From positions 117,017,801 to 117,081,800 of the forward strand of contig NC_084663.1 of assembly GCF_028389875.1 (NCBI RefSeq): 64,000 bases of DNA, read 5' to 3'. The DNA is from Rhea pennata (lineage: Eukaryota > Chordata > Aves > Rheiformes > Rheidae). Each line of letters starts with the position of its first letter. Within the stretch, counting starts at the first letter, position 1. The notes under the pieces are model-generated. The model was not told the DNA's origin, made no database searches, and saw nothing but the letters and a program-made list of their open reading frames with translations. Made by a program: the position numbers and the translations under genes. Below, piece after piece: positions 40,901 to 64,000 of this stretch.

Positions 40901-43900
40901 AGCATGTGACATAAAACAAGTCTGAAATGTCAGATTGTTCTGCAAATGTGAAGTGACAGAATTAGGTCAGTCTCTAGGAGTTTGTAGCTGAGATACAGGT
41001 GTTGGATTCAGGAAAAAAAATACTGATTTAAATGCATTCAGACTGCTTATAATCCATCTGTAACGATGAACTACAGGCATTGAATCTTACAACTGTTTTG
41101 ATTTTAAAAGGGGAGAGGAAGATTTTTTGTACTGAGGAGAGAAATGCCTAGTCAATATGGGCAAAGGGGAGTACCTGATGCACAGCTCCTTAGACTGTAT
41201 ATTGAAGTGCCATTTGAATAGCGGGGGGGGGGGGGGGGGATTAACTCTTATGTTTGTTGTTATTTAGTTTCACTCTAACTCTCTCCTATTTTCCAGAGAA
41301 GTAGATCACCCCTCAATTGTTTACATATCACTTATCCCAATTTTTGCATAACTTCCTGGTAGGTCTAACTAATCTGAAGAGTCCTCAAGATATTCAGATC
41401 TACGTTGTAAATACAAACTTCACTCTGAGGTGGAACTACACTGAGGATGATACCCACATAACGTTTTCAGCTCAATATCGCTGGTAAGTGGTAACTTCAA
41501 GCTGAGATAGATAAGTCTGACACTTATTTGTGTTAGAGGAACAAATTAATTACTATGGTGGTTGGTGCTCTCATTAGCCATTCTGAAATCCATGAAGTAG
41601 ATGACAGGAAATTAAATCTTGAACTGAGGTGTGATCCTACAGGGATCACCTGTCTAATTTATATGTGAAATTAGATTATTTGCTGATAGTGGTATGTTAT
41701 AAATGCAGAGCACATTTAGTAGTAATGCTCCATATTGAAATGGATACACTGCTACCCTTGAAACTAGCATTTAGATTCCTGTATTCTTGTCTATTTTTTT
41801 TTGTTTAATTGAGCTACGTTTTGTCAGCCCCTCCTCCAATGAGTACACGCAGAGATTGAGAGAATTTGTAGCATAGATTTTGAAAAAAATATGAGTGTTT
41901 ATGGACTGGATTTCTGATCTGCAAATTTTAGTCACCAGATGAAGGAATTTAATTTTTGTTCTTAAATGTTTAATTGTTTTTTCTCGACTGCTTTATATAT
42001 TAATACATATGTATAGCAGTACATTTGGTATTTTGTAGAACTTTCCTGAAAAGTAGATACTCCAAAACACTTCTGAGATAAAGTAACTTAAGTTTTTTAT
42101 TTTAGGATTTCCTAGTAAATGATTTTGGATTAAAAAAAAAAACACAAAATGCTGGGCTACTTCTTCCTTAATGTGTAGATGACAAACTGTTGCTCTGAAA
42201 ATGCAGGCTTATTTCAAAAACGTAATACTGGTCTGTCAGAGGTAAGATAAAGATAGAATTGCAGAATCATAGAATCAGTAAGGTTGGAAGGGACCTCTGG
42301 AGATCATCTAGTCCAACCTCCCTGCTCAGCAGGGTCACCTAGAGCATGTTGCATCCAGACGGGCCTTGAATATCTCCAGAGAAGGAGACTCCACAGCCTC
42401 TCTGGGCAACCTGTTCCAGTGCTCCGTCACTCTCACAGGGAAGAAATTCCTCCTCACGGTCAGGCGGAACTTCCCTGTGGTTCAGTTTGTGCCCATTGCC
42501 TCTTGTCCTGTCACACGGGACCACTGGAAAGAGTTTGTCCCCGTCCCCTTGACACCCTCCCTTCAGGTACTTGTACACACTGATAAGATCCCCCCTCAGG
42601 CTTCTCTTCCCCAGGCTGAAGAGGCCCAGCTCTCGCAGCCGTTCCTCAAAGGGCAGGTGCTCCAGCCCTCGGATCATCTTCCTAGCCCTACGCTGGACTC
42701 TCTGCAGTAGCTCCATGTCTCTCTTGCGCTGGGGAGCCCAGAACTGGACACAGTCCTCGAGACGAGGCCTCCCCAGGGCTGAGTAGAGGGGCAGGATCGC
42801 CTTCCTCAACCTGCTGGCAACAGTCTTCCTAATGCACCCCAGGAGACCATTGGCCTTCTTCGCCACAAGGGCACATTGCTGGCTCATGGTCAACTTGTCA
42901 TCCACCAGCACTCCCGGGGGGGGGGGATAAAATTACTTCTTCAGGTCTGTGCCTCTTTTTGGTCAGATCATCACTTCATGATTTCTGAGTGTCTCTCTGA
43001 AGTCAGAAATGATTGTCTGTTAACTCACAGGAAACAGAGCTTCTGGGAAGCTGATTACTGTATTCCAATGTTTTCTTTTGTCTTATTGGTGAACTCCAGT
43101 TTTTATCTTTTGTGCTTTGACATTTCTCTGGGCTCTCAGTTTTCTTTGTTTCTTTGATTTTTTTCTGCCATCAGTATTTTTAAGTTTCTTCCAAGGGATT
43201 ATAAAATAAATGCCAGACTGGGATCATGCACTGAGGATTAAATTCTGGGTTTTGACAGTTCTTTGATGTTCTTTTCTGTGTGTTTAAATGGTGAACAAAG
43301 CAAATTGGTATCAAACCTTGTAGATTATGCTTAACTTTGGCTAATAAAGTAGTATAAATCAAATAGTAGATCTGTGAATTCCAGGGTAACTAAATAGAAA
43401 ACGCTGCTTACATTGGTGCTGGCAATAAATGCCAGAAATTGCTTAGTTGTTCTGTTAGCATTAAGAGGAAAAGTAAGAAGAAAATACAAACTTGAATTGT
43501 GTTGTTCTATTTGTTTTTTGTTTTTTCTTTTTTCCTTAAAGGTTTGAAGACTTTGAGACAAATGAAACAGAATGGAAAGATTTGCCCGGGTGTCAAAATG
43601 TCACTCACACTGAATGTGACTTTTCCTCAGCAATAACTGAATATTATGTTAAACATCATGTGCGTTTAAGGGCTGAAACAAGAGAAGACAAATCTCCATG
43701 GTCTAGTATTTTTGAAATGATTCCGTATTATATAGGTATGAGCTCCATATATAGTGTAATGTTTTTAGTTAAATCCTTTAACACATTATTGTGAAAAAGA
43801 TGTGTGATTTCCATTTTTTATAACATGGGCTAGTGACTTTCCCAACCTTGAAGTAATAAAAGATTCAGGTCATGCAGTGCTACAATTCCGTCTTCGTAGA

Positions 43901-53100: not shown

Positions 53101-56100
53101 TATGAATGCCTGAATTTAATATTTTTAATTTACCTTTTTTAGATAAAGTGGTACCTCTGATCATTTTAATAACATTCGTAAGTGCTTTGATTGCTGTCTT
53201 GCTTGGGGCAATGCTCATCATTTTTGTCCTATATCAAGCATATAATCGGATCAAGTATGTGTTCTTTCCTTCGTGTCATCCTCCTTCAAACATAGAGGTA
53301 AGATGAGATTTGTTTTCTCATTCATTGGGCAGATGTATTTTTAGAAAAATAAACTGAAAAAAACATGAAAAAGTTTTTCTCTGTATATTCTATGGCATTA
53401 CAGGTATTTACCAAGATTAACTTCATAGGTTTTAACAATAAAGTACAGAATTTCCTATAAGGGGGAAAAATGGATGGTGTTAATTTCTCAAATTCTATGA
53501 TAAGCAAAGATTTAATATTGGGGTTTTTTCTTTGGTCCATGTAAAACTATTACTAAAGATACTTTATTTCAGAGAGTACATGCATTTCTCCAATGTGAGA
53601 ATGTACTTGTGGTCTGCTGTATGAGACCAGAAATGTTTTCCTGTAGTGTTATCTGAGAGAGCATGCTTCAGCCTTTTGCCTTTTCCCTTTTAGTGCATGG
53701 CACTAAAAGGGAGCAGTGTCTTACTCACTTTTTCACTTCTTCTGGACTGCCAGCTTGATAATTTTTTCTCACTAATAGCGTTTATCTCTGCCCCCCCCCA
53801 CCCCCCCGTTTTTTTTGTTTTTTTTTTTAATTTGCTGCATTAGAACTCAGTGTTTCTTTGAAGGCTTCCTTAGAGGGAAGTAGGGAAGTCATGAATAGTG
53901 TGGAGAGATGACTAGGGATTGGGGGCAGGTTTAGCTCAGTTGGTTAGAACGTGGTGTTGCTAATGCCAAGGTTGAGGGTTCAATCCCCATATGGGCTGCA
54001 CTGAGGGTTGGACTAGATGATCTCCAGAGGTCTCTTACAACCTTACCATTCTATGATTTGTTTTAATCAGGGGGATTAGCTCAGTTGGTTACAGCGTGGT
54101 GCTGCTAATGCCAAGGTCGTGTGTTCAATCCCCGTACGGGCTATGGTGGGGGTTGGACTAGATGATCTCCAGATGTTGAGACCTGCATGGGTGAGCAAGG
54201 AGCTCTTGGCCAAATTCAGACAGAAGAAGAAAATACACAGAATGTGGAAGAGGGGACAGGCTACTTGGGAGAATTATAGGAATGCAGTCAGAGTATGTAG
54301 AGATGCTGCGAGGAAGGCTAAGGCCCATTTGGAATTGAGTGTTGCAAGGGTCAAGGACAACAGGAAAGGCTTCTTCAAATACATCAGCAGCAAGAGGAGG
54401 ACTAGGGAAAATGTGGACCCGCTACTGAATGGGGCAGGGGCCCTGGTGACAAGGGATACAGAGAAGGCAGAATTACTGAATGCCTTCTTTGCTTCAGTCT
54501 TCACTACTAAGGGCAGCCCTCAGGAATCCCAGAGCCTGGAGGCAAGGGAGAAAGTCCAGAGAAGGGAAGACTTTCCTTTGGTTGAAAAGGATAGGATTAG
54601 AGACCTTCTGGGCAGGCTAGACATCCACAAATCCACGGGCCCTGATGGAATGCACCCATGGGTGCTGAGGGAGCTGGTGGATGTTATTGCCAAGCTGCCC
54701 TCCATCATCTTTGAAAGGTCCTAGAGAACTGGGGAGGTGCCTGAGGACTGGAAGAAAGCCAATGTCACTCCAGTCTTCCAGAAGGGCAAGAAGGAGGATC
54801 CAGGCAACTATAGACCAGTCAGCCTCACCTCCATCCCTGGAAAGGTGATGGAACAGCTCATCCTGGATGTCATCTCCAGACATATGGAGGAAAAGAAGGT
54901 GATCAGGAGTAGCCAGCATGGATTCACCAAGGGGAAATCCTGCTTAACCAATCTGATAGCCTTCTATGATGGAATGACTGGCTGGGTAGATGAGGGGAGA
55001 GCAGTGGACGTTGTGTACCTTGACTTCAGCAAGGCTTTTGACACTGTCTCCCATAACATCCTCCTAGAGAAGCTCAGGAAGTGTGGGTTAGACGAGTGGA
55101 CAGTGAGGTGGATTGAGAACTGACTGAAAGGCAGAGCTCAGAGGGTTGTCATCAGTGGGGCAGAGTCTAGCAGCAGGCCTGTGGCTAGTGGAGTTCCCCA
55201 GGGCTCAGTACTGGGTCCAGACTTGTTCAGCTTATTCATCAGTGACCTGGACGAGGGGACAGAGTGCCTCCTCAGCAAGTTGGCTGATGATACCAAGCTG
55301 GGAGGAGTGGCTGATACCCCTGAGGGCTGTGCTGCCATTCAGAGAGACCTGGACAGGCTGGAGAGCTGGGCAGAGAGGAACCTCCTGACGTTTGACAAGG
55401 GCAAGTGCAGAGTCCTGTACCTAGGGAGGAACAACCCCATGCACCAGTACAGGCTGGGGGCTGACCTGCTGGAGAGCAGCTCTGCAGAGAAAGACCTGGG
55501 AGTGCTGGTGGATGACAAGTTGATCGTGAGCCACCAGCATGCCCTTGTGGCGAAGAAGGCCAATGGTCTCCTGGGGTGCATTAGGAGGAGTGTTGCCAGC
55601 AGGTTGAGGGAGGTGATCCTGCCCCTCTACTCAGCCCTGGGGAGGCCTCGTCTCGAGGACTGTGTCCAGTTCTGGGCTCCCCAGCGCAAGAGAGACATGG
55701 AGCTACTGCAGAGAGTCCAGCGTAGGGCTAGGAAGATGATCCAAGGGCTGGAGCACCTGCCCTATGAGGAATGGCTGCGAGAGCTGGGCCTCTTCAGCCT
55801 GGGGAAGAGAAGCCTGAGGGGGGATCTTATCAGTGTGTACAAGTACCTGAAGGGAGGGTGTCCAGGGGACGGGGACAAACTCTTTCCAGTTGTCCCGTGC
55901 AACAGAACAAGAGGCAATGGGCAAAAACTGAACCACAGGGAAGTTCCGCCTGACCGTGAGGAGGAATTTCTTCACTGTGAGAGTGATGGAGCACTGGACC
56001 AGGTTGCCCAGAGAGGCTGTGGAGTCTCCTCTAGAGCTCTTCAAGGCCTACCTGGATGCAACCCTGTCTAACATGCTCTAGGTGACCCTGCTGAGCGGGG

Positions 56101-57593
56101 AGGTTAGACTAGATGATCTCCAGAGGTCCCTTCCAACCTTACTGATTCTATGATTCTGTGATTGATACACTGTTTTCTGACTCCTCCATTAATAGAATTA
56201 CAGGGCATCAAATTGATTTATTAGGAGCCACATTCAAAACAAGAGCCTCTTCAGGCAGTGGGACCAGTGGGTGTCTTAGCCAAAAGAAATTGTAGGTGCA
56301 AAACCAGTTATTTGAATCAATGACATGCTCATGGAAGAGAATTCCCCTGAAGGGTCACTAAATTAAAAGAATCTACATTTGGAAGCTGAAGAATTGGAAG
56401 CTGGGATTGTGCTTCCATCCTTTTGCTATCTGTGAAGTTCATATTGCGTCTTTTACCCTCCTTCCATGTATTTGCATTGCCTGAGAGGCCACATGGTTCA
56501 AAAAGTGTTTTTATTACCTGTCCTGTAAACTTGGAGGAGGAAAAAATGCAAGCCCAATCTTTAGAGGAAGTTTGCTGTAGCAGGCAGTAGATGCTTCCAC
56601 TGTTACCTGAGCTCTGGTGGTCTGGATGGTTAAATTCCTTGAAAAGGGCATATGTTCCGTTTCCAGCTCTGCTTGGCACAGTGCACTGCTTACTAGTGAT
56701 CTCATTGTGGAATGAACGGAGTGACACAAGTGTGGTGCATTTTGAAATGTAGCGAGAACTGCTCTTCCCTGAGCTTTCTTTGATGTCACTCTGAACATTG
56801 ATTCGAGCAGTGTATGGCCTTCTTAACATGTATCTTCTTCTTACTGAAGCTGTTAAGATGTATAGGATACAGTTATTTCTAGAGCCTTAAAAGACTTGGT
56901 GTCCTACTGTACCCAACAGCTCGCTTTCTCATGTTTCCTTCAAACTTTACTTTTCAACTAATCATCATTTGTAGACTTTGCAAACAGATACCCATCACCC
57001 GCTTGCTATCATGTGTTCTTTGAGAATGTTCTAAATTGGGATTTTTCTTTAGTTCTCGAGTCTAGCTTCCTAAGGCTAGGATCAATGAAATACTATAATT
57101 ATATAGAGGATTGACAACCACAAAAATAGCAAAAAAAAAGTTGGCATTAAAGTGTTATAGTCATCCTGTAGTTCTTTAATATATTAATGCAGCTAAACTT
57201 CATTCTAACTTCCAGTTTGTTGGGGAAACAAATTGTGTATTAAAGGTAGAAAACCCAACAATGCTACAGAATACAATAAAGCAGATTTCTGCAGCTGCTG
57301 TGTAGAACGGGACCATTATTTAGGTATTATATATGATTATTTCTCTTCTGCTTCTCTTTTTGCAGGATCTTGGAGGACTACCTTTCAGCAGTCCATACAT
57401 GTTAACTGAAGAAGAGCCAACAGAAAAGTTTTCCATAATTGAAAGTATCATCACAGAAGAAACAAATCAAATTGATTTTAAAGACTACAAACATTCTAAA
57501 CAGAGCAGTCGAGATTCAGGAAATTATTCTAATGATGATGACACTTCAGGGAGCAAAGTGTCAGAAGAAGTGCTAGAAAAGGAAATAGTATAA
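31878..57593 (+). CDS. IFNAR1: Interferon alpha/beta receptor subunit 1
   Basis: Signal-transducing chain of the type I interferon receptor; binds TYK2. Eleven coding exons: 31878-31947, 41363-41483, 43542-43735, 44379-44536, 45584-45731, 48081-48195, 49078-49280, 50967-51121, 51789-51942, 53143-53297 and 57366-57593. All have GT-AG borders and closing phases and give 566 codons, near the usual 557-590. Residues 1-23 are a signal peptide. Four fibronectin-III subdomains follow, two exons each: about 24-128, 129-230, 231-336 and 337-439; the second and fourth open with IGPP. A transmembrane helix lies at about 442-470. The tail has YVFF (478-481), the AP2 endocytic motif masked by TYK2 in mammals, and DSGNYS (541-546), the beta-TrCP phosphodegron of IFNAR1. 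The start at 31878 has G at -3 and +4 and leads straight into the signal peptide. CR1 copies lie in introns 1, 2 and 10. Confidence 0.95.
32015..32117 (+). repeat. GC-rich tandem repeat, period about 35-36, three copies
   Basis: GGCTCG starts at 32015, 32051 and 32086, each followed by a version of CGCCGCGGCCGTTGGCGAAG and a GGGGTCG-type spacer. It lies just inside IFNAR1 intron 1, in the CpG island. Confidence 0.85.
34086..34700 (+). mobile_element. Ancient CR1-like fragment in IFNAR1 intron 1
   Basis: Degraded CR1 strings in order: CTTGACAAACTGGAGAAACA, ATGTGCAAGGCTCTATGTTT, AAATACAGAATGAGAAGGGA, GTAGTTCTGCCAAGCAAAGA, and GGAGAATTCAGCC-like remnants further on. Sense to the gene. Divergence is high and the ends are approximate. 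Confidence 0.6.
37930..37948. repeat. TA dinucleotide repeat
   Basis: About nine TA units after a T run, in IFNAR1 intron 1. Confidence 0.85.
39058..39186. repeat. Pyrimidine-rich (CT/CCCT) tract
   Basis: Degenerate CTCTCT, TCCC and CCTC units over about 130 bases in IFNAR1 intron 1. Confidence 0.7.
41223..41239 (+). repeat. Poly-G run of 17
   Basis: Seventeen G in a row, 123 bases before IFNAR1 exon 2. Confidence 0.85.
41363..41483 (+). CDS. IFNAR1: IFNAR1 exon 2
   Basis: Acceptor GGTAG ends at 41362; donor GTAAGT at 41484. Encodes [20 protein letters not shown] then LRWNY, the first half of subdomain 1 with the typical FTLRW strand and an N-glycosylation sequon. Confidence 0.9.
41484..43541 (+). 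other. IFNAR1 intron 2
   Basis: Contains an antisense CR1 copy at 42258-42915. The rest is AT-rich with nothing recognised. Confidence 0.7.
42258..42915 (-). mobile_element. CR1 LINE 3' fragment, antisense in IFNAR1 intron 2
   Basis: Read on the minus strand it runs from GGGAGTGCTGGTGGATGACA through an open frame (42911 down to 42339; contains [20 protein letters not shown] and [15 protein letters not shown]) to the CR1 end with TGATTCTATGATTCTGC at 42258. 5'-truncated. The open frame and close match to the copy at 54-56 kb mark it as young. Its 5' junction carries a run of 11 C (G on +). Confidence 0.92.
43542..43735 (+). CDS. IFNAR1: IFNAR1 exon 3
   Basis: Acceptor TTAAAG ends at 43541; donor GTATGA at 43736. 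Encodes [20 protein letters not shown] and [14 protein letters not shown], closing subdomain 1. Phase 2 in, phase 1 out. Confidence 0.92.
44379..44536 (+). CDS. IFNAR1: IFNAR1 exon 4
   Basis: Acceptor TTTACAG ends at 44378; donor GTATAA at 44537. Encodes [20 protein letters not shown] and [13 protein letters not shown], the first half of subdomain 2. Confidence 0.92.
45584..45731 (+). CDS. IFNAR1: IFNAR1 exon 5
   Basis: Acceptor CTTGCAG ends at 45583; donor GTACAA at 45732. Encodes [16 protein letters not shown] and PIHCIKTT, with the paired cysteines closing subdomain 2. Confidence 0.92.
47080..47117. repeat. Poly-T run of about 38
   Basis: Uninterrupted T run in IFNAR1 intron 5, followed at about 47152-47167 by an A run. 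No transposon body was recognised beside it. Confidence 0.85.
48081..48195 (+). CDS. IFNAR1: IFNAR1 exon 6
   Basis: Acceptor GTGCAG ends at 48080; donor GTGAGT at 48196. Encodes [18 protein letters not shown] and [10 protein letters not shown], the start of subdomain 3. Confidence 0.9.
49078..49280 (+). CDS. IFNAR1: IFNAR1 exon 7
   Basis: Acceptor TTCTAG ends at 49077; donor GTAAGC at 49281. Encodes [19 protein letters not shown] and [20 protein letters not shown], closing subdomain 3. Confidence 0.92.
49848..49894. repeat. Hairpin with 14-base perfect arms
   Basis: AACTGTAAAAGCTT at 49848-49861 and its exact reverse complement at 49881-49894, with a 19-base loop. In IFNAR1 intron 7. Confidence 0.8.
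50967..51121 (+). CDS. IFNAR1: IFNAR1 exon 8
   Basis: Acceptor CTTAAG ends at 50966; donor GTATGA at 51122. Encodes [18 protein letters not shown] and [15 protein letters not shown], the start of subdomain 4. Confidence 0.92.
51789..51942 (+). CDS. IFNAR1: IFNAR1 exon 9
   Basis: Acceptor TTTCAG ends at 51788; donor GTAGGA at 51943. Encodes [20 protein letters not shown] and DECIRTPG, closing subdomain 4. Confidence 0.92.
53143..53297 (+). CDS. IFNAR1: IFNAR1 exon 10, transmembrane segment
   Basis: Acceptor TTTTAG ends at 53142; donor GTAAGA at 53298. Encodes [20 protein letters not shown] and further hydrophobic residues, then [19 protein letters not shown], the juxtamembrane TYK2-binding part with the YVFF endocytic motif. 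Confidence 0.93.
53685..53711. repeat. Near-perfect palindrome, 12-base arms
   Basis: CCCTTTTAGTGC, then ATG, then GCACTAAAAGGG. In IFNAR1 intron 10. Confidence 0.85.
53921..54058 (+). mobile_element. tRNA-Ile-derived SINE with CR1-like tail
   Basis: The head resembles tRNA-Ile: an A box TTAGCTCAGTTGGTTAGA from 53931, GTGGTG, then TAATGCCAAGG and a B box GGTTCAATCC at 53977-53986. The tail is GGTTGGACTAGATGATCTCC, AGAGGTCTCTTACAACC, and CCATTCTATGATTTG, like the CR1 3' end, which would let it use CR1 machinery. tRNA-Ile/CR1 SINEs of this design are described from passerine birds (TguSINE1 type); assigning this copy to that family is inference. Confidence 0.8.
54070..54172 (+). mobile_element. 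Second tRNA-Ile SINE head, joined to CR1
   Basis: A box TAGCTCAGTTGG at 54077-54088 and B box GTTCAATCCC at 54123-54132, then GGTTGGACTAGATGATCTCC and AG. At 54173 the SINE tail stops and CR1 internal coding sequence begins. The rest of the SINE tail is not found after the CR1. Confidence 0.8.
54173..56161 (+). mobile_element. Young CR1 LINE, 5'-truncated, with nearly intact reverse transcriptase frame
   Basis: A single frame runs from the SINE junction to 56071 with only two stops (54722-54724 and 55121-55123) and no frameshift. It shows reverse transcriptase motifs in order: [54 protein letters not shown] and LADDTKLGG (the position before ADD is L rather than the usual F/Y). It then has the CR1 C-terminal region and an end in GATTCTATGATTCTGTG. 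It is sense to IFNAR1, in intron 10. The endonuclease domain and 5' UTR are missing. Not expected to make an active enzyme. Confidence 0.95.
55652..56347 (+). repeat. Left arm of a 696-base inverted duplication
   Basis: Equals the reverse complement of 60916-61611 over its whole length, with 3 mismatches and no indel by direct comparison. It begins at CTCGAG inside the CR1, includes the CR1 3' end (to about 56161), and continues through about 185 bases of non-repeat flank to AATTCCCC. Confidence 0.95.
57366..57593 (+). CDS. IFNAR1: IFNAR1 exon 11, cytoplasmic tail with degron
   Basis: Acceptor TTGCAG ends at 57365; TAA at 57591-57593. Encodes [20 protein letters not shown] and then [26 protein letters not shown] is the phosphodegron recognised by SCF beta-TrCP in IFNAR1. 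This exon lies between the two arms of the inverted duplication. Confidence 0.95.
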   Translation, partial: DLGGLPFSSPYMLTEEEPTEKFSIIESIITEETNQIDFKDYKHSKQSSRDSGNYSNDDDTSGSKVSEEVLEKEIV

Positions 57594-58975
57594 CTTAAGA
57601 AAATAAAACTCAAATGTTGGACTTGCAGTATATCAAGCACTTAAACTTTTTTATTATGAAGGTCTCGAGCTAATGAAGACAGGATGACTTTGGGTTCTGG
57701 GTGCTGAAGCTCCCAAATCTGAAATTTGCTAATGGAAAGTTAGAAAGTTACATTCCTTCTCTGCTGCAAGAGGACTCAAATCAAAGCACAATTGACTTCT
57801 AGTAACTTAGGCCATTTTGACGGAATTTTCTGCTTATGATAAAAAGAGTGCCATTTGAACAAAGGAGCAGATCTGTACGCTTTGTATACTTGAACCTGGT
57901 AACATCGATGAGACTCTACTGACGTTCTGCAAAAAGTTTCTCACTATTTAGGAGACTGAAGCATCAAAATCCAGTGTTGAATTTTTGTGTATTCACACAA
58001 GCAGGAGGAAATCGTTGCCTAATAGGATTTTAAGAACTTCTCTGACCTCTTCTCCCAGCCCCCTTGGGGCAGTGTTTTTTAGCTCGATGGGTCCACAGCA
58101 AAGGATATAAAGAGAGCAATAGCCTCAGCGAGGTGCCTCCTCTGAGCCTACTCGTAGAGTTCCTTGTGGCCGATGCTGCGGGATGCTCCTGGTGCCTGCT
58201 CTCCTGCTCATATATCTGTGTCCCTGCATCAGGGTGCTCTCCTCACACAGTGCTCAGTGATCTGGGCGAGTATGGGTGGGGGGACGGAGCAGGAAGGAGG
58301 TTCACTCTGCTTAACTATGAAGAAAAGTTGTAACAGTGGAAGCTCGTTTGACCAAATTATTTTGCACCACATGTAGGACAACAATGAATGTCCAAGCCAT
58401 GTGTACACTTCAGGAAGAAAACATATTATTAATTTAATGACAAGGCATGTTAAGAGGCATATTCTTAATTTTGCTTCTTTTTTGTTTTGTGGTTAGATAC
58501 CCAGAAGTGTAAAATATTTACTTCTTAATGAGTTTTATTTAGAAACGTGACTCTCTCTTAACAAAGAAGGAACTGATTTCTGTAATTAGAAGGACTCAAG
58601 TTGCATTAAGAATATATCCTAACAGAGTGGTGAGGATATTTGTCATTCAAAACTTTCTCAATTTGGTCTCATTTTATTAACAGACTTTTCTTTCTACAAA
58701 ATACCAGAATATGCTGCAATAACATTTTTCCATTTGCATATCACTTTCTTTTTTTATCCTAATTTTTAATGGTTTATTTTTTATGAAGAAATTGATTTAG
58801 AGTAAGCTGAGTTTTTTGAGTTTCGTATGGATTTTTTTATTGTAACAAGCAGCTTTTAGTTCTTGTTGATGTTTAATTTTTTTTAATTTCAAATATGTGA
58901 TATAATTTTATAAATATCCTTGTGTTCTTTGGAGAACATAATAAATTTTGCACATTTATGTATTTATTCCCTTCT
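57594..58975 (+). other. IFNAR1 3' UTR
   Basis: AT-rich sequence between the stop codon and the likely poly(A) site. AT-rich stretches with ATTTA-like pieces lie near its end. No transposon was recognised. Confidence 0.55.
58940..58945 (+). terminator. IFNAR1 poly(A) signal
   Basis: AATAAA about 1.35 kb after the stop, followed by TTTTGCACATTTATGTATTT. An earlier AATAAA at 57602-57607 is only 9 bases after the stop codon and is a less likely main site. Confidence 0.65.
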
Positions 58976-60103
58976 TGATTCTGTATTTTTTTGGATATAG
59001 TGATACCAAAGCTGTATTACAGATATTTAGGAAGTCTCCATGTGTCTTCAGTTATTGTCCTTCGTGAAAAGCACTGAAGAATACCGCATGTAAATTTAAT
59101 TAGGGTTTACAAAGGATTGTTGCATGATTTAGAAATATGAAAGAAGTGTTGATCCATATTCTGAACTAGGCCTTCCAATGAGAGTGCTGAATGTGAGCAT
59201 TCCAGTCATTGTGGTCTTTGGTAAATATTTTGTGAATTGTTGCAAGATAGTTACGAAAGACAGTATGAAGTCTACTGCATTTATGTGGTCTCTTCGATAT
59301 AAGTCCATGTTCTCTGTTCCACTGCAGCAATGAGAGCTGTATGTGCAACTGTTCCTTTTAGTGCTTTATGCTGAAAAGAGTTTGGGGTTTTTTTTTTCCT
59401 GACAACTTCAATTTCAGATTGTTTTTCTTAGTTGTGACCTACTTCTGCAATAAGGTTTGAGGAAATACTACTTTTTAAAAAGCTTAGTTGTAAGATGGGT
59501 TACAGCAAACCTTCTATCAGCTCTTTTTAGGATTGCCAGAAGAAGCAAAAACAGGATCTTAAGATGCAAATAATCATTCTGTCTATATTTTGTCTATCAC
59601 TTAAGCAAGAAAAATAAGTTCTTAAAAACCTGCTGCAGTCTTATTGTAATGTATGCTACGGATGTATCCAGAAATGATATTAGGAAAATAATTTGACAAA
59701 ACTTTCATAGTTCACCTTCTAAGATCTGGTCATTACAATGCATAAAGGAACATTGTTCCAGTTTCTAAAGTCTATCCAAAGATTGAGACCCCGAAGATGT
59801 TTTTCTTTTTCCTTGCCCAAAATATTTTTAACAAAAGAAGATATTTATTTCATATGGAAGAGGTTGATGAGGAACTATATTTGATACTCAGACACAGCCT
59901 TATTAAAAATTGAGTATTTTCAATTGGGCAGCATAGAGTTGGATTTGTCAGTATTGACTGTAGAAATTGCAAGCAAATTAATTGAATCCGGTGTGTTTGA
60001 AGTGAACATTGTTACCAATGTTGATACTGTGGAATACTTGGAATATAATCGATTTTTAAGACTTGATATGGGGAGGAGTGATGGATCATCTCTAACCTTC
60101 CAG
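58976..60103. other. Intergenic sequence after IFNAR1
   Basis: No gene recognised. A 61-codon open frame at 59924-60109 runs into the CR1 boundary and shows no domain. Confidence 0.6.
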
Positions 60104-60915
60104 GAGTAGCCAGCATGGATTCACCAAGGGGAAATCCTGCTTAACCAATCTGATAGCCTTCTATGATGGCATGGCTGGCTGGGTAGATGAGGGGAGAGCA
60201 GTGGACGTTGTGTACCTTGACTTCAGCAAGGCTTTTGACACTGTCTCCCATAACATCCTCCTAGAGAAGCTCAGGAAGTGTGGGTTAGACGAGTGGACAG
60301 TGAGGTGGATTGAGAACTGGCTGAAAGGCAGAGCTCAGAGGGTCATCATCAGTGGGGCAGAGTCTAGCAGCAGGCCTGTAACTAGCGTCCCCCGGAGCTC
60401 AGTACTGGGTCCAGACTTGTTCAGCTTATTCATCAATGACCTGGATGAGGGGACAGAGTGCCTGCTCAGCAAGTTGGCTGATGATACCAAGCTGGGAGGA
60501 GTGGCTGATACCCCTGAGGGCTGTGCTGCCATTCAGAGAGAGGTTGACAGGTTGGAGAGTTGGGTGGAGAGGAACCTCCTGAGGTTCAACAAAGGCAAAT
60601 GCAGAGTCCTGTACCTAGGGAGGAACAACCCCATGCACCAGTACAGGCTGGGGGCTGACCTGCTGTGGTGCAGCTCTGCAGACAAGGACCTGGGAGGGCT
60701 GGTGGACAAGTTGATCGTGAGCCACCAGCATGCCCTTGTGGCAAAGAAGGCCAGTGGTATCCTGGCTTGGTTGATTTAGGAAGAACAGGCTGAGGGAGGT
60801 GATCCTCCCCCTTTACTCAGCCCTGCTGGGGCCATGCCTCAAGTGCTGTGCCCAGTGCTGGGTTCCACAGTACAAGAGAGACATGGAGCTACTGGAGAGA
60901 GTCCAACAAAGGCAG
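60104..60915 (+). mobile_element. CR1 LINE internal fragment lacking its 3' end
   Basis: Starts abruptly at AGGAGTAGCCAGCATGGATT, matching the CR1 copy from 54905. It stays open to 60779 with DFSKAFDTV and LADDTKLGG, but the GVPQGS motif is degraded to SVPRSS. It runs to about 60915, where it meets the right arm of the inverted duplication instead of its own 3' end. The first 450 bases are very close to the 54.9-55.4 kb copy, the rest less so. Confidence 0.92.
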
Positions 60916-61611
60916 GGGGAATTCTCTTCCATGAGCATGTCATTGATTCAAATAACTGGTTTTGCACCTACAATTTCTTTTGGCTAAGACACCCACTGGT
61001 CCCACTGCCTGAAGAGGCTCTTGTTTTGAATGTGGCTCCTAATAAATCAATTTGATGCCCTGTAATTCTATTAATGGAGGAGTCAGAAAACAGTGTATCA
61101 ATCACAGAATCATAGAATCAGTAAGGTTGGAAGGGACCTCTGGAGATCATCTAGTCTAACCTCCCCGCTCAGCAGGGTCACCTAGAGCATGTTAGACAGG
61201 GTTGCATCCAGGTAGGCCTTGAAGAGCTCTAGAGGAGACTCCACAGCCTCTCTGGGCAACCTGGTCCAGTGCTCCATCACTCTCACAGTGAAGAAATTCC
61301 TCCTCACGGTCAGGCGGAACTTCCCTGTGGTTCAGTTTTTGCCCATTGCCTCTTGTTCTGTTGCACGGGACAACTGGAAAGAGTTTGTCCCCGTCCCCTG
61401 GACACCCTCCCTTCAGGTACTTGTACACACTGATAAGATCCCCCCTCAGGCTTCTCTTCCCCAGGCTGAAGAGGCCCAGCTCTCGCAGCCGTTCCTCATA
61501 GGGCAGGTGCTCCAGCCCTCGGATCATCTTCCTAGCCCTACGCTGGACTCTCTGCAGTAGCTCCATGTCTCTCTTGCGCTGGGGAGCCCAGAACTGGACA
61601 CAGTACTCGAG
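60916..61611 (-). repeat. Right arm of the inverted duplication (CR1 3' end antisense plus flank)
   Basis: Reads GGGGAATTCTCTTCCATGAG, then the reverse complement of the 185-base flank and of the CR1 3' end to CTCGAG at 61606-61611. On the minus strand the CR1 part is open (61566 down to 61192) and ends as in the left copy. Confidence 0.95.
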
Positions 61612-64000
61612 GCCTCATAATGGATATTCTTTAATTTATAGTAACAAATGGAGAGACGGCCATGGCTATTTATCTGTTTTTTGAAGATTATGTGACTGTT
61701 TAGGCCTATGTTGCCAGTTCGCATACTGAAAATGAAGACTTTTGACTCATTAATAGTTCTTTCAACATTGTTTATTTGGGGATATCCACTTAGGACTCCA
61801 GTATATGTGTGTATCCATATTATATTTTATATTTATAAAGAATTCTTACCCTTTTGTCTCAGCATTGTGATTTCCTTTGTCATCCCTGCCATCTCTGGCT
61901 TCTGTGAAATGTATCTTACAGCTCTGAATAATCCATACATTCAGACTTGCATGGGAAGACTCTCCCATCTCAAAACCCATTTGGACTACATGTGAAGTTT
62001 GGTTTTGTTTTTTCTGTTCCCATCAAGCTAGTAATTTCAGAATGAACCAAAACCTTGTAGCATATTCTACCTCTTGACTAGATTTTTAAATTCTTTCCTT
62101 CACTGAAAAAATTCTTCCTCTCAGCTCCTTTGTCCCTATGAGCAATTTCTCATGCCCGCTCTCAGGTATTTCCTATTTTATCTTATCAGCTCTCAGAAGA
62201 CATATGCTTAGAGCTCACCAGGTGGTTTGGTTTATTTGGATCCGGACCTATTGTCCCAGCCAGCCTGTAGACCAGAAGCTAACAGACTCTTGTTAACGCC
62301 GTTCTGCTCCCCTGCTAGGACCCCTCAGTATTAAGAATGTGCCAGGTGAGCCAGGCTCTTGGGGAACAGGGCAGGGGTCTTTCCCACACGTTGCATGGGG
62401 AAGCTGAAGGAGTCCGTGGCTGTGGCAGATGACTAACACTGGTGTATCCGCCTAGAGCTGAATGCTCTTTCTCGCAGCTTTTAGTCCTCCAAAGACCATG
62501 TGCTACACTGAAATTTTGGTGGTGTACTGAGAACCTTCATGAGCTCACTTCATGAACACCTTGTGACTAGTTTGGGGTTGCATCTCTATGAAGGTGGCAT
62601 TTCTTACGGCTATTGCTTCCAGCAAGAGTAGTCCTGATTCCTGTACATTATTTGGCATTTGGAGAGACTCCAACTCCCTTCCAATGTAGTTTCTGACCAC
62701 CATCTTAATAAGGAATTTAATTATTTTATTTATCCCATCACATTGGGCCTATAAAGTGGGACAGTATGTCCTCAATGTTAGGAGGGCTGCTGCTTTCTAT
62801 TTCAGCAGGAACAACTGTCTAATTGGAAGTGTTAGTTTTTTCCTGAAGGATATCTATTTTGTGATTTCAGTAATCCAGACAGTTTTCAGACTATTTTACA
62901 TGTATAGGAGGAATTCTTAAGTTAGTTTTTAGGATCAAGAAAAGGTGGAAGAAAAGCATTCAATGATTAAACCATCAACTTCAGGAGTAATTTCTTTGTC
63001 CTATAAAGACTCATGTAAGATCTACAAAGACAGTGAACTTTTTTGGTGTGTTCCAGCTTTATTTGCATTTTATTTATAGAATTCTAAGAGATCTTGGAAA
63101 GAAAAACAGCTTGCTATCAGTATTTTTCTATTACTGTTTTAAAATCTTTTTTTTCTTCTGATCAGCATTTCTGCATAAAACTCAGGATAAAAGATTTGTA
63201 TTTTAAAATTTAGTAAGAATTCAGAAAGAAAGAGGTCCAGTTCCAAAAACGTTTCCTAGTATTGTTTGTGAAATGATTTGCAGTGTGCATCAAGGAGTAT
63301 GACAAAAGGAGATTAAATTTCTGTATAGGGTAAAACATTTCATATGCGTAGTTCACCGTTAGCTTTGACAGTTTCTGTCTCTTTTTTACCTCTCTTCCCT
63401 AAGAAGGAAATGTCACACTTTCAATTATTTAATATGATTCATAAATACAGTTAATACTGCTTAACTACAGTTGATGCCTGGTTAAACAGAAGTTATTATG
63501 TTTACAGGAGTCAAGCTTGCTGTTCTACAATTGCTTGCCCTGCAGCTAGGAGGTAAGATCTACTAGATTTAGAGTATGTGAAAGGGAAGTTCAACTGAAG
63601 TTCTTCCTGACTTATTTGGGGAAATAACTATTTCACCTTGACAACTGTATGTGTTTTCCTGCCTGCAAAACTATCTGTGCTCTCTTAAGTCAAGATACTC
63701 CATAAAGGTTTTGTTAGGCTTTAATTCCATATTGTTTGATGTCACATTCAAGTGGATGAAAGGGCTTTAAGTGCTTAAAACCGTAATTGTAAAGTTATAT
63801 ATGTTTAAAAGATGGGGGTGGGGAGTGCGGAGATAGATGCCAGGTGCTGCCACAGACTAGACATTAGGGTGAGGAGGTTGAATACAAGTCACTGGCAGTG
63901 GCAAGCAGCTTGCCAACATCCCTCCCTTATTATTTTTTTTAACCAAAGGAAACAAAGCACACACCAGTTTCTGTTAGGCATTGTCTTACCAGGGGCAAAG
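61612..64000. other. Intergenic sequence to the window end
   Basis: No gene, RNA gene or clear transposon was recognised. IFNGR2 would be the expected next gene, but no exon or CpG island is visible here. Confidence 0.6.

Follow-up and report, generated by a model that had tools for sequence, protein, structure and literature searches.

The last exon of IFNAR1 in Rhea pennata (assembly GCF_028389875.1) is bracketed by two inverted arms, the right one of which was probably copied from the left locus by break repair, as part of gene conversion among neighbouring CR1 elements. The stretch analysed, hereafter the window, comprises 64,000 nucleotides of contig NC_084663.1, and the positions given are those of the window.

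Inverted arms around the last exon of IFNAR1

The gene was identified as IFNAR1 by its joined exon peptides, which match structures of IFNAR1, 3se3_A with an E-value of 2e-78. The two arms, the exons near them and three CR1 elements of the window are:

CR1-C, 42262..42918, minus strand: within an IFNAR1 intron; has private bases in common with CR1-A, mainly at 55552-55742
IFNAR1 exon 10 (transmembrane), about 53143..53297, plus strand: borders set by splice-site inspection
CR1-A, the likely source, 54175..56158, plus strand: start approximate, set by inspection; two open pieces, separated by stops, each with RVT_1
Left arm, 55652..56347, plus strand: located in intron 10 of IFNAR1; 3′ part of CR1-A to about 56160, continued by a single-copy flank of about 185 bases
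IFNAR1 exon 11, coding to stop, 57366..57593, plus strand: encodes the peptide DSGNYS
CR1-B, 60101..60912, plus strand: without a 3′ end; a patchwork of identity to CR1-A; adjoins the right arm
Right arm, 60916..61611, minus strand: reversed copy, with the flank at 60916-61104 and the CR1 3′ part at 61105-61611

Compared base by base, the arms are reverse-complementary over 696 positions with three mismatches and no indels (99.6% identity), just as an earlier reading made from the sequence only had described them, and the identity ends abruptly at both extremities. In each arm the CR1 3′ end accounts for about 510 bases and non-CR1 DNA for about 185, a division also given by that reading. The flank at 56160-56347 has two matches in the 1.27-Gb assembly, namely the two arms, in a search that skips very common words; the objection that it might be a high-copy repeat therefore fails, and the duplication is not refuted by it. 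Exact inverted matches of at least 40 bases form three antidiagonals within the window, one belonging to the arms (55659-56347) and two to CR1-A and CR1-C.

The mismatches, written as left/right in the left-arm orientation, are G/T at 55658, A/G at 55743 and T/C at 55772. At the latter two positions the left arm has CA or TG and both the right arm and CR1-C, the copy at 42 kb, have CG, as had been noticed before, and both have the appearance of CpG decay in the left arm. At 55658 it is the right arm that deviates, the left arm agreeing with CR1-C. At all three positions the right arm carries the commonest base of 59 other CR1 copies, a state that gives no indication of its being the copy. All three mismatches fall within the outermost 121 positions of the 696 (chance about 0.005). 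This clustering was considered as proof of a tract edge and dropped: the same 121 bases contain the starts of 5 of the right arm's 11 CpG sites, two of the differences are CpG changes, and the remaining one is 7 bases away from the edge.

It is very unlikely that the right arm was falsely joined during assembly. Repeats do invite misjoins, but the arms differ from each other at three positions and both ends of the right arm continue into other sequence through junctions with small changes, unlike a duplicated contig end.

The spacer between the arms contains exon 11 and AATAAA motifs at 57602 and 58940, which bears out the earlier placement of the exon and its poly(A) signal, while the left arm sits in intron 10 and a third AATAAA, at 61041, lies within the right arm. 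The assembled order across 56348-60915 is the normal one. Arms of such length and likeness around the last IFNAR1 exon are a plausible substrate for inversion of 56348-60915. An inversion of this kind is possible and, if it occurred, would remove from the transcript exon 11 together with DSGNYS, which we take to be a degron.

CR1 elements of the window

CR1-A is a CR1 LINE possessing both a reverse transcriptase domain and an octamer-type 3′ end. RVT_1 was detected in both open pieces (E-values 1.2e-15 and 1.9e-7), and stop codons at 54722-54724 and 55121-55123 interrupt the reverse transcriptase frame. The left arm does continue into a CR1 body, as had been claimed, but the word "intact" was used loosely for it. 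The 3′ end, TTCTGTGA, lies near 56153 and is the CR1 octamer given in the available part of PMC2612034.

CR1-B ends three bases before the right arm and is 90% identical to CR1-A in a patchy manner, with exact runs of 145, 77, 68 and 66 bases. No sequence similar to CR1-A was found in 61612-64000 or in 56348-60095. LINE insertions normally retain their 3′ end, and CR1-B has none, so it must have been cut in the event that produced the right arm or earlier. The sequence-only reading had overlooked that CR1-B adjoins the right arm and that CR1-A has private patches in common with both CR1-B and CR1-C. Twin priming (5′ inversion) was rejected as an explanation because unique flank separates the pieces and CR1-B is 90% like CR1-A.

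Two SINE-like units are located at 53925-54173, each consisting of a tRNA-like head and a CR1 3′-like tail, and the second seems to continue directly into the CR1-A body near 54173. Their heads score 26.5 and 26.0 bits with the Rfam tRNA model, below the gathering score of 29, and ARAGORN found no tRNA genes in the window. The units recall the passerine tRNA-CR1 SINEs described in PMC5729268, the available part of which considers conversion a less probable way for a SINE to have arisen.

Junctions of the right arm

The right arm ends in a junction on either side, while the alignment of CR1-A runs unbroken across 55652:

Inner junction, 60913..60919, plus strand: CAGGGGG, where the source has CAGGGG, probably microhomology plus one G
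Outer junction, 61605..61617, minus strand: minus-strand TGAGGC followed by CTCGAGT; like a family CR1 with a 5-base loss

The seamless course of CR1-A and the two broken ends of the right arm make the left arm the likelier source, in line with the earlier suggestion. That the right locus was the source instead, its minus-strand CR1 and flank being copied leftward into CR1-A, is quite unlikely: homologous copying does predict a seamless CR1-A at 55652, and it is the right arm that has the commonest base at all three differences, but it would then be a coincidence that the tract stops within 3 bases of the break in CR1-B. Neither a CR1 octamer nor a poly(A) tail, the marks of CR1 3′ transduction, is present at 60913-60919.

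At the corresponding outer edge, most of 14 genomic copies have GGGAGGCCTC and three have TGAGGCCTC, and a few bases further on CTCGAGT or a near variant of it follows, so that the outer edge of the right arm fits an older CR1 minus five bases, in a short piece of evidence noticed after the fact. At 55658 the right arm has T, as do 50 of 59 copies, and the G shared by CR1-A and CR1-C occurs in 1 of 59. An older minus-strand CR1 may thus already have been present at the outer end of the right arm. The statement that the arms are not two independent CR1 insertions accordingly holds for the copied DNA and perhaps not for the site.

Inverted templated insertions arise by template switching in the FoSTeS/MMBIR model, according to which a fork at the right locus would have jumped to CR1-A in inverted orientation by means of microhomology, replicated 696 bases there and returned into CR1-B, the 3′ part of which was dropped. 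Such switching, which needs no older minus-strand CR1, is a fair rival that we hold as a tentative alternative. It is favoured by the few bases shared at each junction and by the deletion at the target, but the family T at 55658, where CR1-A has G, and the resemblance of the outer edge to a CR1 with a 5-base loss suggest a CR1 that existed before, and the wider patches shared by CR1-A with CR1-B and with CR1-C would require conversion regardless.

Private sequence patches of CR1-A, CR1-B and CR1-C

The best non-self match of CR1-B is CR1-A (1127 bits, the next 1007) among 40 candidates scored of 7595 found in a first look, and that of CR1-C is also CR1-A (1008 bits, the next 986) among 40 scored of 7858. 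Among the matches scored for the CR1-A body the top one is on another contig, so there is no reciprocal best match.

Rare bases were defined as CR1-A bases present in at most 15% of 25 other copies, these being what is left of 48 loci after removal of 9 (self, window and duplicates) and of 14 for which no plus-strand match was obtained with the setting used. The right arm shares 15 of 17 rare bases, CR1-B 19 of 29 and CR1-C 10 of 26; the best of the 25 other copies share 9/44 and 6/30. The shared sites are arranged in blocks, mostly at 55159-55539 for CR1-A and CR1-B and at 55552-55742 for CR1-A and CR1-C, each interrupted by unshared sites, and a 34-base string of the former block occurs in two places in the genome, CR1-A and CR1-B only. 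Between CR1-B and CR1-C themselves hardly any sharing is seen (1 of 43 rare bases). Tracts of identity private to two copies and bounded by ordinary divergence, by which nonallelic gene conversion is recognised, are therefore found in the window.

Two further arguments were dropped. The 145-base exact run between CR1-A and CR1-B was not kept as a stand-alone proof, because long exact runs alone prove little when seven other copies have runs of 99-135 bases with CR1-A at some point along the element. For the same reason a simulation with uniformly placed mismatches, in which 0 of 20000 trials reached the observed value, was judged too lenient.

Sharing among CR1 copies in relation to distance

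The pair survey included 54 loci outside the window together with CR1-A, CR1-B, CR1-C and the right arm, compared on both strands, and 1651 of 1653 pairs had at least 8 informative sites. Fourteen pairs are less than 60 kb apart; 11 of them have the 11 highest sharing values, and three do not. Three of the 11 are the pairs among L027, L028 and L035, copies lying at C1:199.95-199.99 Mb with a spacing of about 21.6 kb. No difference separates L027 from L028 in the 3.7 kb compared, which indicates a segmental duplication; L035 lies at the same spacing.

The right arm and these three pairs were excluded from the distance averages, for which 1887 pairs were counted. Mean rare-base sharing was 0.345 below 60 kb (8 pairs), 0.080 at 60 kb-1 Mb (24 pairs), 0.036 at 1-5 Mb (24 pairs), 0.0153 beyond 5 Mb on the same contig (335 pairs) and 0.0157 between contigs (1496 pairs), in surveys that are partly selected, as near pairs come largely from common top-40 lists, which favour similar pairs. 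Since L069-L073 were taken as local matches of L014 and L051-L056 for their nearness to other matches, both pair surveys are not unselected.

Because many near pairs came from shared match lists, five probes not chosen for proximity were used, which are less selected than the pair surveys, yet all drawn from matches to CR1-A. Among the best 39 matches of each probe, those within 2 Mb numbered 2 for L010, 5 for L014, 0 for L012, 2 for L018 and 2 for L006, i.e. 11 of 195 listed matches against 0.61 expected under uniform placement. In a control for local density, 12 of 1560 matches of the other probes fell in the same windows, giving an odds ratio of 7.7 and a p-value of 1e-5, a rough value because the match lists overlap. 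The top match was local for three of the five probes; that of L006 was non-local, and the other probes also match its surroundings (7 of 312). With the window elements as probes, local matches among the 39 listed, those in the window included, numbered 5 for the 3′ part of CR1-A, 1 for its body, 2 for CR1-B and 3 for CR1-C. L018 (the C8 copy) has 4 of its 39 listed non-self matches within 0.9 Mb on C3:126.99-127.83 Mb, as if there were regional CR1 lineages.

Of five near pairs outside the window four are inverted, an excess which may be due to the loss of direct pairs by deletion. L041 and L043, inverted and 16.6 kb apart, are 77-93% identical per 100 bases for about 400 bases and 96-100% identical thereafter, a step such as a conversion tract would give, and L044/L051 show a similarly sharp change. 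Identity amounts to 99.5% over 1.4 kb in L052/L053 and to 98% over 1.0 kb in L055/L056; L024/L054, 26 kb apart, share little (4 of 45).

In this sample sharing thus falls with distance, as gene conversion would have it, the exceptions being probe L012 and the pairs L024/L054 and CR1-B/CR1-C. At 0.1-1 Mb the shared bases are scattered and form no clear tracts in L014 and its neighbours, so good support for conversion is confined to short range, and farther out insertion near a source may be the alternative. As an explanation of the likeness of CR1-A to CR1-B and CR1-C themselves, one minor CR1 subfamily or insertion near a common source is unlikely. The scattered sharing around L014 and the even likeness of L010 and L031 speak for it, but it does not predict different blocks for the two pairs, a 34-base patch absent from any third copy, or sharp changes of identity such as those in L041/L043 and L044/L051, and it leaves the copied unique flank unexplained.

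The process does not seem to be special to IFNAR1. It is conceivable, and suggested here with considerable reserve, that CR1 copies exchange sequence with neighbours to about 1-5 Mb, a reach well past the 10 kb or so stated for human Alu, and that tracts overrunning them leave inverted unique DNA round exons, e.g. that of the IFNAR1 signalling tail, as standing substrates for exon inversion.

Probable origin of the right arm

Returning to copying from the left by break repair, the event would have started with a break at the right locus, where a broken end with CR1 sequence would have paired with CR1-A some 5 kb off and been extended through the CR1 3′ end and then about 185 bases into the unique flank. 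The new strand would have been released and joined to the CR1-B stump through the CAGGGG microhomology with one added G, CR1-B losing its 3′ third. The outer edge resembles an older CR1, and what invaded may have been the 5′ remnant of such an element, on the minus strand and tail-to-tail with CR1-B; this is the least certain step. The wider process would be nonallelic gene conversion, by which near CR1 copies on one chromosome exchange sequence.

The edge site left aside, the arms differ at 2 of 689 bases, both being CpG sites changed on the left. Avian substitution rates are 1.5-2.2e-9 per site and year, from which we infer an age of about 0.66-0.97 My for the duplication, with an overall interval of 0.08-3.5 My, an estimate undependable if the arms convert each other.

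Avian insertion dating and subfamily sorting rest on CR1 divergence, and both ages and trees would be biased if neighbours overwrite each other. Tracts that overrun the repeat would also be a source of inverted repeats beside exons, and from the decay of sharing with distance one could measure, in a single assembly, how far ectopic repair reaches in a bird germline.

Comparison with known systems

Among the titles and abstract openings listed for CR1 or chicken repeat 1 together with gene conversion, in literature that covers subscription journals thinly, none reports conversion among CR1 copies, which does not imply its absence from print. The available part of PMC9214253 deals with biased conversion, and the term "gene conversion" does not occur in PMC8665684.

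Neighbouring copies of primate Alu undergo nonallelic gene conversion, with a range of about 10 kb stated in the available parts of PMC8230782 and PMC6598467. In Rhea, as in the Alu case described there, neighbouring copies of a dispersed repeat would be made alike in patches, and more so when closer. Unlike Alu, the repeat is a bird CR1 LINE, and excess sharing persists at 60 kb-5 Mb, without tracts, in a small and partly selected sample.

For gene conversion ending outside homology, the accessible text of PMC5104497 reports microhomology and added nucleotides. The case there concerns an induced break in mouse cells, and that in Rhea would be the fixed or segregating product of a germline event. 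In the mouse case copying passes beyond the homology and is completed by microhomology end joining, in some instances with extra nucleotides, and the Rhea event may have gone the same way.

The right arm resembles a FoSTeS/MMBIR product in being an inverted copy of DNA from close by, with a few shared bases at its ends and sequence lost at the target. It differs in that homology may have begun the Rhea event, its outer edge resembling an older CR1.
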